NCBI RefSeq assembly: GCF_019090165.1
Contig: NZ_JAHRIB010000181.1
Location: forward strand, 1-64,000
DNA from: Streptomyces sp. BV286
GTDB lineage: Bacteria; Actinomycetota; Actinomycetes; Streptomycetales; Streptomycetaceae
DNA length: 64,000 nucleotides
Direction of reading: 5' to 3'
Shown: positions 46,863 through 50,986 of the stretch, in pieces
Numbering within the stretch: the first letter of the stretch is position 1
Layout of the letters: every line of letters starts with the position of its first letter
Notes under the pieces: generated by a model
Told to the model about the DNA's origin: nothing
Databases searched by the model: none
Seen by the model: the letters and a program-made list of their open reading frames with translations, nothing else
Made by a program: the position numbers and the translations under genes

Positions 46863-47360
46863 TCAATCGGCAGCCAGCGCCTCGAAGTAGGCCCGCTGCG
46901 CGGGGTAGTAATCGTCGAAACTCGGGGGCTTGGCACCGTCGCGAGCGGCGCCGAGCATGTCGAGGTAGTACTCCCAACCCGGCCCGACCTCTCCGACGCC
47001 TTCCGTGGTCATCAGGTGGTGAACCAGCCGCAGCTCGGTCGTCCCGGCCGATTCGGACAGCTGCAGCTCCATACGCCACTCCCCCGCCTCGTCGGACATG
47101 GAAACGGCAAGACGCGTCGGCGCCTCACACACGTCAATGCGCGCATCGCTCCACGGCGCGCCCTCCTCGAACGACATCCGGACCCGGATCGTGCGGCCCG
47201 GCCCCGCGTCGCCCTCCCACGGGCCGAACCAGCGGGCCGTACGCTCCGGTTCCGTGACACTCGCCCACACGTCATCGATGGGCGCCCGGAAGACCCGGGT
47301 GAGGATGAGGTCACTGCCCTGGGCAGTGGACACAAGCCGGGCACTCGACAGTGGATTCAC
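46863..47360 (-). CDS. SRPBCC/AHSA1-domain protein
   Basis: A 165-residue helix-grip protein of the AHSA1 (activator of Hsp90-like) group. LILTRVFRAPIDDVWASVTEPERTARWFGPWEGDAGPGRTIRVRMSFEEGAP is the diagnostic start, and HHLMTTEGVGEVGPGWEYYLDMLGAARDG the terminal helix region. Its start overlaps the ArsR regulator stop by four bases. ArsR-AHSA1 pairs like this are very common in actinobacteria and probably form a small ligand-responsive unit, though the ligand is generally unknown. Confidence 0.85.
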   Translation of the reverse strand: MNPLSSARLVSTAQGSDLILTRVFRAPIDDVWASVTEPERTARWFGPWEGDAGPGRTIRVRMSFEEGAPWSDARIDVCEAPTRLAVSMSDEAGEWRMELQLSESAGTTELRLVHHLMTTEGVGEVGPGWEYYLDMLGAARDGAKPPSFDDYYPAQRAYFEALAAD

Positions 47361-47725
47361 GCGGTGTCCTCTCTGGATTCGTTGTCCGATGCCGTACGGC
47401 GCACCGCACGCTCACGCCGGGTGCGGCGCACCTCCGTCTCCAGAGCGTCCAGCCGCTGATCCCAGCCGGCCGGCCCACGGATCATCGCGATCCACTCCGC
47501 GAGCCCCGTGAGAGGCTCCGGGCTCAGTTCGTACACCCGGTTCCTGCCCACCAGCTCGTCGTGGACCAGACCGCACTCCCGCAACACCCGCAAATGGCGG
47601 CTCACCGCCGGGCGGCTCACCGTGAACCGCCCCGCGATCTGCCCCACCGTGAGCGCACCACCGCGCAGCATGAGCAGGATGTCTCTGCGCACAGGATCCG
47701 TAATCGCATGCGCCACATCATCCAT
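47357..47725 (-). CDS. ArsR-family transcriptional regulator
   Basis: A 122-residue winged-helix regulator. ITDPVRRDILLMLRGGALTVGQIAGRFTVSRPAVSRHLRVLRECGLVHDELVGRNRVYELSPEPL is a complete ArsR-type DNA-binding domain. No cysteine cluster for metal sensing is seen, so it belongs to the non-metal branch usually paired with AHSA1 proteins, as here. It probably represses its own two-gene operon. Confidence 0.88.
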   Translation of the reverse strand: MDDVAHAITDPVRRDILLMLRGGALTVGQIAGRFTVSRPAVSRHLRVLRECGLVHDELVGRNRVYELSPEPLTGLAEWIAMIRGPAGWDQRLDALETEVRRTRRERAVRRTASDNESREDTA

Positions 47726-47899
47726 ACCCGAAAGCGTAACCTATTGGTTACGCGTTTCGATAGATGACGGACCCCTCATCCTTGAGATCGCCCGCCCTTC
47801 CGAGGGTGGGTGGCTGCACCGTCGCTCAGTATCATCTTTTGCGGTGCTATGCAACAAATGCGAAGATTGGGATAGTGAGTGAATCACTAGGAGAATCTA

Positions 47900-48208
47900 G
47901 TGACATCAGAGCAAGGTGGCTCGTCCGACAGGGAGTTCGTCGAGGCCTTGGTCGAGCTCGAAGCCGAGGCCTCGGTGCACGACCTGGTTCCGTGGTGCGC
48001 CCGTCATGACATCGACGTAGTGCCTATGTCCGCCGGGGCACTCATCACCGGATCGAGCGGGAAGTTCGCCGAAGCGTTCGGCGTCGCGCGACTCGAGAAC
48101 CGTTCACGTCCGCAGACGCTGCCGGTTCCAGCGACGCTCTCGAACACCGCAAGGTCCGTCACCGTGCTGCCGATTCCCACGCCCGGAGCCCGCGACCGGA
48201 ACTCGTGA
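47900..48208 (+). CDS. Small protein resembling a free-standing subtilase propeptide
   Basis: A 102-residue protein starting at GTG 47900 after AGGAGA, 47 bases before the S8 protease gene and probably on the same transcript. I recognise no named family. The segment ASVHDLVPWCARHDIDVVPMSAGALITGSSGKFAEAFGV follows the pattern of protease prodomains (helix, strand with V-x-x-x-x-G, helix ending in AFGV) seen in subtilases and kumamolisins. The adjacent protease carries a similar segment in its own N-terminus (AKEYARTAGLTVTAESRLGFTVAGTAAAYEQL). It may be a separate chaperone or inhibitor of that protease. A short palindrome AGTGA-A-TCACT lies at 47878-47888 near its start. Confidence 0.55.
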   Translation: MTSEQGGSSDREFVEALVELEAEASVHDLVPWCARHDIDVVPMSAGALITGSSGKFAEAFGVARLENRSRPQTLPVPATLSNTARSVTVLPIPTPGARDRNS

Positions 48209-48255
48209 CCGGCTGCCGTGCCGCGTGTGTCCGGGCCTCCACTTCTGGAGGACCG

Positions 48256-49746
48256 ATGACAAGCCCCACAACACCCCAGTACGGGCAGGACGTTCCGGGC
48301 ACCGTATACGGCTATGTCTCCGCCCGGTCGGAGGGCGGGGTGCCCATGACACAGGCGACCGCCTTCGACTCGGCCAGGCCGTTCCGCGCCGAGAGCGACA
48401 CCCAGGAGCGCGCCAAGGAATACGCACGAACAGCGGGGCTGACCGTGACCGCCGAGAGCCGGCTGGGCTTCACCGTCGCCGGTACGGCAGCCGCGTACGA
48501 ACAGCTCACCAGCGGGCGGATGGCCAGCTACGAGGTGGAACAGCTCGGGTCCATGAACCGGGAGCGTTCCGTCACCCACCTCGACATCATCGGCGCACGG
48601 CAGCCCGACGCCCTCGGAGTCGGCGCCGCACCCGGTACTGACGCCATCGAGGCGGTCGCCCTGGAACGTCCGCGTACGCCCATGCGTCTCCTCCCCGCCG
48701 CCCCCAGACCGCCGGAGGTCGCCGCGTTCCACCTCACGCTCCCGGACGACGTGGCCAAGCTGCTCAACGCGACCCCGGCACACGAGGCGGGGCACGAGGG
48801 CCGCGGTGTGCACGTCGCCATGGTGGACACGGGACAGGCCGAACACGCCTTCTTCGGCGCCCACGACTACGACGTCGTCCCGACCGTCGCGCTCGTCCCC
48901 GGCACCAGCGCGGAGGAGGACCCGATCGGGCACGGCACCGGTGAATCGGCGAACATCTTCGCCGTGGCTCCCGGGGCGCGACTGCTGCCCTACCGCGCCA
49001 GCGACCGACGGGGCGACCTCACGGCCGCCACCGCGGGATTCCTGCGCGCCAAGGCGGACCAGCCGCAAGTCCTCACCAACTCATGGGGTGGGGACGGGGA
49101 CTTCCCCCCGGTCGGGCCGCCCAGCCAGGCCGACGTGATCTTCGCGCTGGAAATCCTGGATGCGGTGGAGCAGGGCATCGTCGTCGTCTTCTCCGCGGGC
49201 AACGGCCAGTTCACCATCGAACCGCAGGTGCCCGGTGTGATCGCGGCGGGTGGAGTGTTCGCGGCACAGGACGGCCGACTTCGCGCGTCGAACTACGCGA
49301 GCGGGTACGTGAGCCCGTGGATCGACGGCGTCCGCGTGCCGACGGTTTGCGGCCTGGTCGGTCTGCTGCCCCGGGCCCAGTACCTGATGCTGCCCGTGCC
49401 ACCCGGTTGCGCGATCGACGTCGACGAGAGTCTGCCCGGCGCGGGCAACCCGACCGGCGACCCGGGCGACACCACCGGTCCGAGGGACGGCTGGGCCATG
49501 TTCTCAGGCACGTCGGCCGCGGCACCGCAGATCGCCGGAGCGGTCGCTGTGCTCCTCGAAGCCCGGCCGGGGCTGACTCCCGCCCAGGTGGCCGAGGCGC
49601 TCGCCAGGACCGCCACCGACGTCACCACCGGCACCAATCACCCACGGTTCGGCAACAAGGCCAAGGTCGGACCTGACACGGCCACCGGGCCCGGACTCGT
49701 CAACGTGAGCGCCGCGCTGGACTTCGTCCTCACGCAGAACCCCTGA
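48256..49746 (+). CDS. S8-family (subtilisin-like) serine protease without signal peptide
   Basis: A 496-residue subtilase. ATG 48256 follows GGAGG by four bases. The catalytic triad is complete: Asp191 in VHVAMVDTGQ, His226 in PIGHGTGES and Ser420 in FSGTSAAAPQIAGAVA, with oxyanion Asn316 in FSAGNGQ. The first 185 residues hold a propeptide-like part with no hydrophobic signal, so the protease is probably cytoplasmic or exported by an unusual route. Before Ser420 there is a Pro/Gly/Asp-rich insert (IDVDESLPGAGNPTGDPGDTTGPRDGW). The small upstream gene may encode its regulator. Target unknown. Confidence 0.85.
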   Translation: MTSPTTPQYGQDVPGTVYGYVSARSEGGVPMTQATAFDSARPFRAESDTQERAKEYARTAGLTVTAESRLGFTVAGTAAAYEQLTSGRMASYEVEQLGSMNRERSVTHLDIIGARQPDALGVGAAPGTDAIEAVALERPRTPMRLLPAAPRPPEVAAFHLTLPDDVAKLLNATPAHEAGHEGRGVHVAMVDTGQAEHAFFGAHDYDVVPTVALVPGTSAEEDPIGHGTGESANIFAVAPGARLLPYRASDRRGDLTAATAGFLRAKADQPQVLTNSWGGDGDFPPVGPPSQADVIFALEILDAVEQGIVVVFSAGNGQFTIEPQVPGVIAAGGVFAAQDGRLRASNYASGYVSPWIDGVRVPTVCGLVGLLPRAQYLMLPVPPGCAIDVDESLPGAGNPTGDPGDTTGPRDGWAMFSGTSAAAPQIAGAVAVLLEARPGLTPAQVAEALARTATDVTTGTNHPRFGNKAKVGPDTATGPGLVNVSAALDFVLTQNP

Positions 49747-49765
49747 CGTCGAGCCGGTCGTGTGG

Positions 49766-49797
49766 GACGCCGAAGGCTCGCGTTCGCCTTCGGCGTC
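49766..49797. terminator. Bidirectional terminator hairpin
   Basis: GACGCCGAAGGC and GCCTTCGGCGTC form a perfect 12-bp stem with an 8-base loop, 19 bases after the protease stop and facing the convergent hydrolase gene. Confidence 0.8.
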
Positions 49798-49858
49798 TTC
49801 GGTGCTGACGCGGGCCCCTGGAACCACCCCGTCCGTTCGCGGCCGAGGGCTCAGCCGT

Positions 49859-50986
49859 CTACGGAGCCGGGCTGATGTCGCCGTTGGTGTTCATGTCGAA
49901 GACGCCCTGCGTCTTGCCGTCGACCTTCAGTTGCTTGAGCCAGTGCTTCGAGAGGTTGTGCACGTTCTTGTGCTGCTTCTCCCACGGCACCGAATGGCCG
50001 GCACAGGCCAGCTTCACCATCAGCTTGTGGGAGCCCGTGACGGCGTTGTAGAGCGCGGGGACCGAGAAGTTGAGCTCCGGATTCGAGTTCGGCGGCGACG
50101 TGTTCACCTGCCTGTCGTGCTCCCCGTACACCATGAGGACCGGCACGCTGCCGCCGAGGACGCCGCCCTGCGCCGCAGTGGTCTCGTTCCAGCCCCACCG
50201 GGCGAAGTTCCTGATCCGGTTGGTCCCTTCCGGCGGACCCCAGGTCCTGCCCACCGGATCACTCTCCATCATCGCGGCCCATGCCACTTCCACCATGCCG
50301 GGTTCCCGCTGGTCCAGGCAGCCCAGCTCGGCGTTCCAGCCCGTCTCCAGACCCGGTCTCGTCCCCAGGAACATCGGGAGGCCGGGCATCGGCAGTGTGG
50401 TCGGCGCGTTCGAGGTCCCCTTGGGCGGGAAGATCGGCGCCAGCAGGAACAGGCTGGACACCTTGTCCGGGTTCTTGACCGCATACGGTCCCATCGTGAA
50501 CGCGGCCGCGGACCAGCCGATGAAGGCCACCTTCTTCACCTTGCACTCGTGGCGGATGTACTCCACGACGGTGTTCAGCTCGTCCCGGTCGCTGTGGGAG
50601 TTGTTCAGTTGGAACGCGTAGTTCGCGGTGCCCGGGATGTGGCCCGGCGGCCGCGGGATCAGCAGCTTCTGCTCGGCGAGGCTCGTGTTGCGAGGGTCGT
50701 CCATCTTGGGCCGCGGCGACAGCCCGTGCCCTTGGAGGTCCATCATGAAGACGTCGTACCCGGCCTTGGCCAGGGCCTCGGCCCAGCTGTAGCTCTTGTA
50801 CCGGAGGTCGAAGCCCGCCAGGACCGGGACGCTCCTGCCGTGCAGCATGAGGACGGCCCTGCGCTCTTCGAGGTGTCCCAGGGACGTGCCGTCGCGCTCC
50901 CGTACGAAGAGCTCGACGTGTTCGCCCGCGTTCGCCGGGACAGTGGAGACGTGGGGCACCGCGTGGTCGGTCAGGGTGACGGGCAT
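49859..50986 (-). CDS. Alpha/beta hydrolase with atypical GWSAA nucleophile motif
   Basis: A 375-residue protein of the alpha/beta hydrolase fold. The likely start is ATG 50986 (PVTLTDHAVPHVSTVPANAGEHVELFVRER); a longer frame to 51070 is possible. RRAVLMLHGRSVPVLAGFDL is the oxyanion region, YDVFMMDLQGHGLSPRP the next strand, and KVAFIGWSAAAFTMGPYA the nucleophile elbow, where the last Gly of G-x-S-x-G is Ala. VLMVYGEHDRQVN gives the Asp and LACAGHSVPWE the His, so the triad looks complete. There is no signal peptide. Substrate unknown. Confidence 0.78.
   Translation of the reverse strand: MPVTLTDHAVPHVSTVPANAGEHVELFVRERDGTSLGHLEERRAVLMLHGRSVPVLAGFDLRYKSYSWAEALAKAGYDVFMMDLQGHGLSPRPKMDDPRNTSLAEQKLLIPRPPGHIPGTANYAFQLNNSHSDRDELNTVVEYIRHECKVKKVAFIGWSAAAFTMGPYAVKNPDKVSSLFLLAPIFPPKGTSNAPTTLPMPGLPMFLGTRPGLETGWNAELGCLDQREPGMVEVAWAAMMESDPVGRTWGPPEGTNRIRNFARWGWNETTAAQGGVLGGSVPVLMVYGEHDRQVNTSPPNSNPELNFSVPALYNAVTGSHKLMVKLACAGHSVPWEKQHKNVHNLSKHWLKQLKVDGKTQGVFDMNTNGDISPAP

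Follow-up and report, generated by a model that had tools for sequence, protein, structure and literature searches.

Does the small gene lying directly upstream of a subtilase gene in Streptomyces encode a free-standing counterpart of the protease's propeptide, and what would such a protein do to its neighbour? The locus sits in a 64,000-nucleotide stretch of Streptomyces sp. BV286 (contig NZ_JAHRIB010000181.1; hereafter the window), for which the original prediction had described an S8 protease without a signal peptide next to a propeptide-like partner. We consider it reasonably probable that the small protein is a free-standing relative of the neighbouring subtilase's own propeptide that docks on the protease and inhibits it in trans, as an accessory that tunes its activity.

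A constrained small gene precedes a subtilase with its own propeptide

The protease gene (48256..49746, plus strand) encodes a 496-residue S8 subtilase (PF00082, E 5.9e-24), and direct reading places its ribosome-binding site, GGAGG, at 48247..48251. The residue numbering of the original prediction agrees with the ATG at 48256 and disagrees with the alternative in-frame start, a GTG at 48205 overlapping the stop of the small gene. The complete catalytic triad it had reported, Asp191, His226 and Ser420, proved invariant in all 19 aligned relatives, and the triad motifs were also found in three further loci (L016, L017 and L033). By Kyte-Doolittle hydropathy, none of 19 proteases has a hydrophobic N-terminus, in agreement with the claimed lack of a signal peptide: the highest 15-residue mean within the first 50 residues is 0.09 for the window protease and at most 1.01 across the 19. 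For comparison, among eight other S8 genes in this genome, five reach 1.8-2.0 within the first 120 residues of the open frame; in this comparison set L008 and L044 are one gene, and the remaining three loci, at -0.48 to 0.65, may be cut short.

The protease was also said to begin with a propeptide-like region, and structure modelling points the same way. The first 150 residues give no significant Pfam match, the whole protein matching PF00082 only. In the AlphaFold2 model (pLDDT 83.5, pTM 0.90; 15-row alignment), a predicted N-terminal propeptide of about residues 1-150 (48256..48711, plus strand) occupies the canonical place, with a strand at 17-23, a helix at 47-59, strands at 63-67 and 71-76, a helix at 78-85 and strands at 88-97, 103-112 and 131-136. 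Residues 11-494 of the model align with the unprocessed enzyme ProN-Tk-SP with a Z of 31.8. A profile of the protease propeptide, searched against PDB sequences, met no propeptide at E <= 1, its sole match being the non-propeptide 2m5y (E 0.0011).

The small gene occupies 47900..48208 on the plus strand, with a GTG start at 47900, a stop at 48208 and, by direct reading, a ribosome-binding site AGGAG at 47889..47893. Its dN/dS lies between 0.31 and 0.83 in 21 pairs from seven orthologues and is below 1 in every pair. The other two frames contain stops and give values of 0.70-1.37 and 0.96-2.08 (four gap-free orthologues, six pairs each). The 102-codon open reading frame is therefore a real, constrained gene, lying just upstream of the protease where the original prediction had placed its 102-residue protein. 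Its constraint is weaker than that of the protease, for which dN/dS is 0.16-0.37 over the same number of pairs, including one orthologue from a locus without the small gene (L014).

The small protein is predicted to adopt a propeptide-like fold

Family scans with Pfam, NCBIfam and PADLOC placed the window small protein in no family above cut-off. Its best Pfam match, NAD_binding_3 (E 0.0014), was set aside, its 19.7 bits falling short of the 24-bit cut-off. Among 17 small proteins collected from related loci, none matched the subtilisin-type inhibitor family PF05922 (Inhibitor_I9) at E <= 1, and two matched PF09286 (Pro-kuma_activ) below the curated cut-off (best E 0.075), the window protein itself having no match to the latter family.

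We then turned to structure. The AlphaFold2 model of the small protein (pLDDT 84.0, pTM 0.74; 11-row alignment) has strands at residues 13-20, 39-43, 46-52, 72-74 and 84-89 and helices at 30-35 and 53-60. Its topology, strand-helix-strand-strand-helix-strand, is that of the S8/S53 propeptide fold, a domain of roughly 80-100 residues. The helix, short strand and helix ending near AFGV, on which the likeness to prodomains was first based, are present, but they cover only part of the modelled elements. Foldseek returned no PDB chain at E <= 0.001, and its own ranking was headed by unrelated ferredoxin-like proteins. After re-alignment of the Foldseek top 1000, pro-kumamolisin ranked first (rmsd 3.5, 87 residues, chain 35-173) with a Z of 7.8, a value below 8 and thus in the ambiguous range, where it may reflect only a common arrangement; the second row, an unrelated protein, reached 6.7. 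In the same re-aligned list, the tripeptidyl-peptidase 1 precursor and a lanthipeptide-protease chain of 61 residues each gave a Z of 5.5. Profile searches against PDB sequences pointed to the same family: the kumamolisin propeptide region was the best match of a 13-row small-protein profile at E 0.013, which is suggestive and not significant, and came up with a 17-row profile at E 0.029. The search for a known propeptide family thus had a divided outcome, with pro-kumamolisin first on re-alignment, but Foldseek alone null and PF05922 unmatched. We conclude that the small protein has a predicted propeptide-like fold of the kumamolisin type, which upholds its description as prodomain-like.

A compact predicted propeptide fold over most of the protein speaks against its being a substrate or precursor cut by the protease, as in peptide natural-product clusters. 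The C-terminal tail, which varies among relatives, would suit such a role, as would the protease relative at L022, whose gene immediately follows a radical SAM gene; about 8 kb to each side of L022 contain no small gene, and we regard a substrate role as very unlikely.

The small protein is related to the propeptide of its neighbour

Is the small protein also related in sequence to the propeptide of the protease beside it? In the local set, the Calothrix small protein matches its own neighbour's propeptide at E 4e-11, that of Nonomuraea at 9e-8 and that of G569 at 7e-6, E-values that refer to small databases. Profile-profile comparison by hhalign of the small proteins with the protease propeptides gave a probability of 96.7% (E 4.6e-10), rising to 97.5% with more members. 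A scripted repeat scored 58, whereas none of 200 column-permuted controls exceeded 10.6.

When compared by themselves, the seven small proteins from Streptomycetaceae are not significantly similar to the propeptides (hhalign probability 0.4-0.6%). They do match six small proteins from outside the family (91%, E 1.2e-7), and these six, as two groups of three, match the propeptides at 95.5% and 98.5%. The link is hence transitive, and by these profile comparisons the window small protein is a homologue, through intermediates, of the neighbouring protease's own propeptide. Two intermediates, L021 (1e-6) and L020 (1.1e-4), were first found with a Streptomyces-only profile, again with E-values referring to small databases. 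A match of that profile in L004 (4.8e-5 on the same footing), although similar in E-value to the intermediates, is probably a chance frame, and the weak small-protein matches in G155 and G096 (L004, L005) likewise look like chance frames.

We also applied the 13-row profile to 326 Actinomycetota genomes, and 13 of them, including the window's own genome, had a match at E <= 0.01. The profile contained no sequences from G1061, G1011 or G1221. In G1061 it found both a small gene (1.7e-19) and the propeptide of the adjacent S8 protease (2.9e-8); in G1011, a small gene after an S8 gene (6.8e-6); and in G1221, which shares its genus with G1011, an S8 protease's propeptide (5.8e-5) with a small gene just downstream. 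In G962 it found the orphan small gene described below. In G1085 and G1032 the matches fall in PF09286 domains (Pfam E 2.2e-15 and 5.4e-31) that belong to large proteins. Six genomes with matches at E 0.001-0.01 were dropped as chance or common fold, their frames reading as helicase-like, FAD-oxidase-like and glycosyltransferase-like. The 17-row profile has the small proteins of G1061, G1011, G1221 and G962 among its rows and contains no protease sequences. At E <= 1e-3 it gave exactly two matches in each of G1061, G1011 and G1221, namely the small gene itself and the propeptide of the protease beside it (5.4e-9, 1.4e-7 and 1.4e-7, respectively), with 150 of 172 candidates scored in G1011 and all of them in the other two. 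It also matched large frames, one in G222 and two in G778, of which one (L077) reads as a sedolisin.

The two genes are linked across distant bacteria

An intact small gene adjoins an S8 gene of the window-protease family at 16 loci in 15 genomes or records, spanning several Actinomycetota families and one cyanobacterium. The small gene lies upstream on the same strand at 11 of these loci (the window, L031, L032, G928, G063, G254, G703, G569, Nonomuraea, Calothrix and G1061), downstream on the same strand at three (G049 at L029, G1011 and G1221), and the pair is divergent at two (G242, and G049 at L021). L028, a copy scoring identically to L029, was left out of this count. Both loci carry an identically scoring protease followed by its small gene, and they sit near opposite ends of the 10.7 Mb chromosome of G049, about 73 kb in from each, as would be seen with terminal inverted repeats. 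Across two phyla, the full-length proteases of Calothrix and Nonomuraea share 63% identity, which points to horizontal transfer.

A single orphan small gene was seen, in G962 (L059 1812-2246, minus strand), with no S8 gene in the 14 kb read and partial S8 matches only elsewhere in the genome. More distant S8 relatives stand alone. Five at about 35% identity (L068-L072) lack a small gene in the roughly 6 kb to each side, and at three plasmid loci of similar identity (L040-L042) it is absent within 4 kb on either side. Thirteen plasmid records carry a protease relative, and the loci of five of these were examined; no plasmid matched the window small protein at E <= 0.1. Phages gave no match to the protease, and 58 pattern matches in viral contigs included no relative.

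The S8 relatives on rhizobial plasmids (L042 5005-8951 and L040 1861-7740) have neighbours of purine or deazapurine type, and no small gene was seen there; these neighbours include folE, adenylosuccinate synthetase and lyase, queE and IMP dehydrogenase, as well as purH, SAICAR synthase and a member of the beta-ribofuranosylaminobenzene 5'-phosphate synthase family.

The small gene is repeatedly lost while the protease is kept

Linkage is less steady at close range. Among 13 Streptomycetaceae species whose protease is at least 65% identical, seven of which come from a set of 295 genomes, an intact small gene is present in seven and absent from six. Four of the six retain remnants: about the last 16 codons in G222, about 25-28 codons in G104 and G252, and in L033 a decayed copy with its start codon gone and an internal deletion. 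No remnant was recognised at the locus in G207 or G778. The expectation that the genes stay adjacent therefore holds for 16 loci but fails in nearly half of the close set, and rare adjacency, named beforehand as an outcome that would count against the pairing, applies in part because of these six relatives.

The protease keeps its triad in all six, and in L014, the sole such case measured, it remains constrained (dN/dS 0.19-0.33, six pairs). On a 22-row protease tree, presence of the small gene changes seven times, six of them forced by well-supported branches, and clusters no more than shuffled labels do; within the close clade, absences fall in up to five places. Upstream, conserved columns mark a promoter-like element, CTTTTGC...GAAGATTG (47836..47869, plus strand), ahead of the pair. 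Twelve of its columns, including TTTTGC, are invariant in all 11 loci aligned of the 13, five of them without an intact small gene. Since a sigma-70 consensus scan of 47700-49950 gave no match, its promoter role is a putative one. Its retention at loci with and without the small gene fits internal deletion. As judged from this pattern across genomes, the small gene is dispensable.

These losses bear directly on function. Because the small gene is lost repeatedly and the protease kept, the small protein would tune the activity of the protease and be unneeded for folding or survival. One alternative holds that it is a folding helper, a kind of split propeptide that provides in trans the intramolecular-chaperone activity required by the protease. 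Subtilisin propeptides are described as folding chaperones (excerpts of PMC6993865), and the small gene adjoins the protease gene. Against this, the protease already carries a modelled propeptide in the canonical place and persists, triad intact, in the six relatives without the small gene, under constraint in L014. Possession of its own propeptide and survival of partner loss together favour an accessory inhibitor, and we judge a folding helper unlikely.

An antitoxin-like, essential role is also hard to reconcile with repeated loss. The same pattern weighs against an essential immunity-like role for the small protein, as a guard for a protease that would leave the cell despite lacking a signal peptide and would work on other cells or on the cell surface. 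The lack of a hydrophobic N-terminus, the C-terminal DUF346 repeats of the related enzyme at L021 and the divergent arrangement at two loci would each be in keeping with such a guard, which we nevertheless hold to be distinctly improbable. Finally, the small protein could be a vestigial duplicate of the propeptide, without present function and on its way out, as its weaker constraint and the scattered absences in the close clade might indicate. A dN/dS below 1 in 21 of 21 pairs and linkage maintained across deep divergence argue otherwise, and we give this reading very little credence.

An accessory inhibitor thus remains the favoured reading. The small protein would dock on the protease as a propeptide does, its sheet against two surface helices, and its C-terminal tail may enter the substrate cleft. 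So docked, it would silence the processed enzyme until the small protein is degraded or left behind. The pairing in distantly related bacteria probably holds the protease in check, through a binding and inhibition that we infer.

Relation to known inhibitor and protease pairs

Stand-alone propeptide-like inhibitors are known. Excerpts of PMC6993865 list POIA1 of a fungus, the yeast peptidase B inhibitor and the Arabidopsis subtilisin propeptide-like inhibitor 1 (MEROPS I9), add TgMIC5, and describe Plasmodium SUB1-ProM, encoded beside subtilase genes, as a potent inhibitor of its neighbour. All five resemble the window protein as small, separate proteins of propeptide fold (predicted in our case), and SUB1-ProM also in being encoded beside a subtilase gene. 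Whereas these five are all eukaryotic, the window protein comes from a bacterium, has the kumamolisin-type propeptide as its nearest counterpart with PF05922 unmatched, and is a putative inhibitor. Among the titles listed in searches of open-licence literature, none described a bacterial stand-alone propeptide partner, eukaryotic SUB1-ProM aside. Since the stand-alone inhibitors named in those excerpts are all eukaryotic, a bacterial family beside a subtilase that retains its own propeptide would offer a simple system for how a propeptide becomes a separate regulator.

In sedolisins (S53, kumamolisin; PF09286), which share the propeptide fold and are the family reached by the small-protein profile, the propeptide domain is fused to the protease, whereas in the window it is free and lies beside an S8 enzyme. 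Bacillus-type intracellular subtilisins carry a short inhibitory N-terminal extension and are not known to have a partner gene, whereas the window enzyme has a full modelled propeptide and a partner gene. What they share with it, going by the excerpts of PMC6220982, is an intracellular S8 enzyme.

The closest bacterial parallel in logic is PopC of Myxococcus xanthus. According to excerpts of PMC6434023, PopC is a subtilisin-like protease of 50.8 kDa in which sequence analysis recognises no signal peptide, its N-terminal part has no recognised domains, it is enriched in the periplasm, and PopD restrains it in a complex. Excerpts of PMC4320627 describe popCD as an operon and PopD as the PopC inhibitor, and those of PMC11821767 report bins with PopC but without PopD. 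The window protease, with 496 residues, no hydrophobic N-terminus and a match to PF00082 only, resembles PopC as PMC6434023 describes it, a comparison of descriptions and not of sequences. The likeness of the two pairs, drawn from description only, is one of architecture and logic. popD follows popC, as the small gene follows the protease gene in G049, G1011 and G1221 and opposite to the order in the window. PopC also differs in its periplasmic enrichment and its secretion. Unlike the window small protein, PopD is not called a propeptide in the excerpted descriptions (PMC6434023, PMC4320627, PMC11821767). It is conceivable, although we lean against it, that our pair is the general form of PopC/PopD, that is, a broad bacterial class of subtilases without classical signal peptides, each guarded by a duplicated, free-standing propeptide copy, with PopD an unrecognised propeptide. 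The pair also offers a direct, testable structural guess for how PopD restrains PopC. To call the locus an unusual two-gene control unit was fair, but related arrangements are known in SUB1-ProM and PopC/PopD, and the control itself is something we infer.

Other genes around the protease and its relatives

In the window, two genes at 46863-47725 on the minus strand are divergent from the pair and read as ArsR-type regulator-like and AHSA1-type-like. At L021 (8-3939), the C-terminal part of the S8 relative matches a DUF346 repeat, an AurF-like gene lies upstream, and the small gene is divergent. At L022 (131-2913), the radical SAM gene directly ahead of the S8 relative (PF04055, E 3.3e-16) suggests a peptide-modification cluster.
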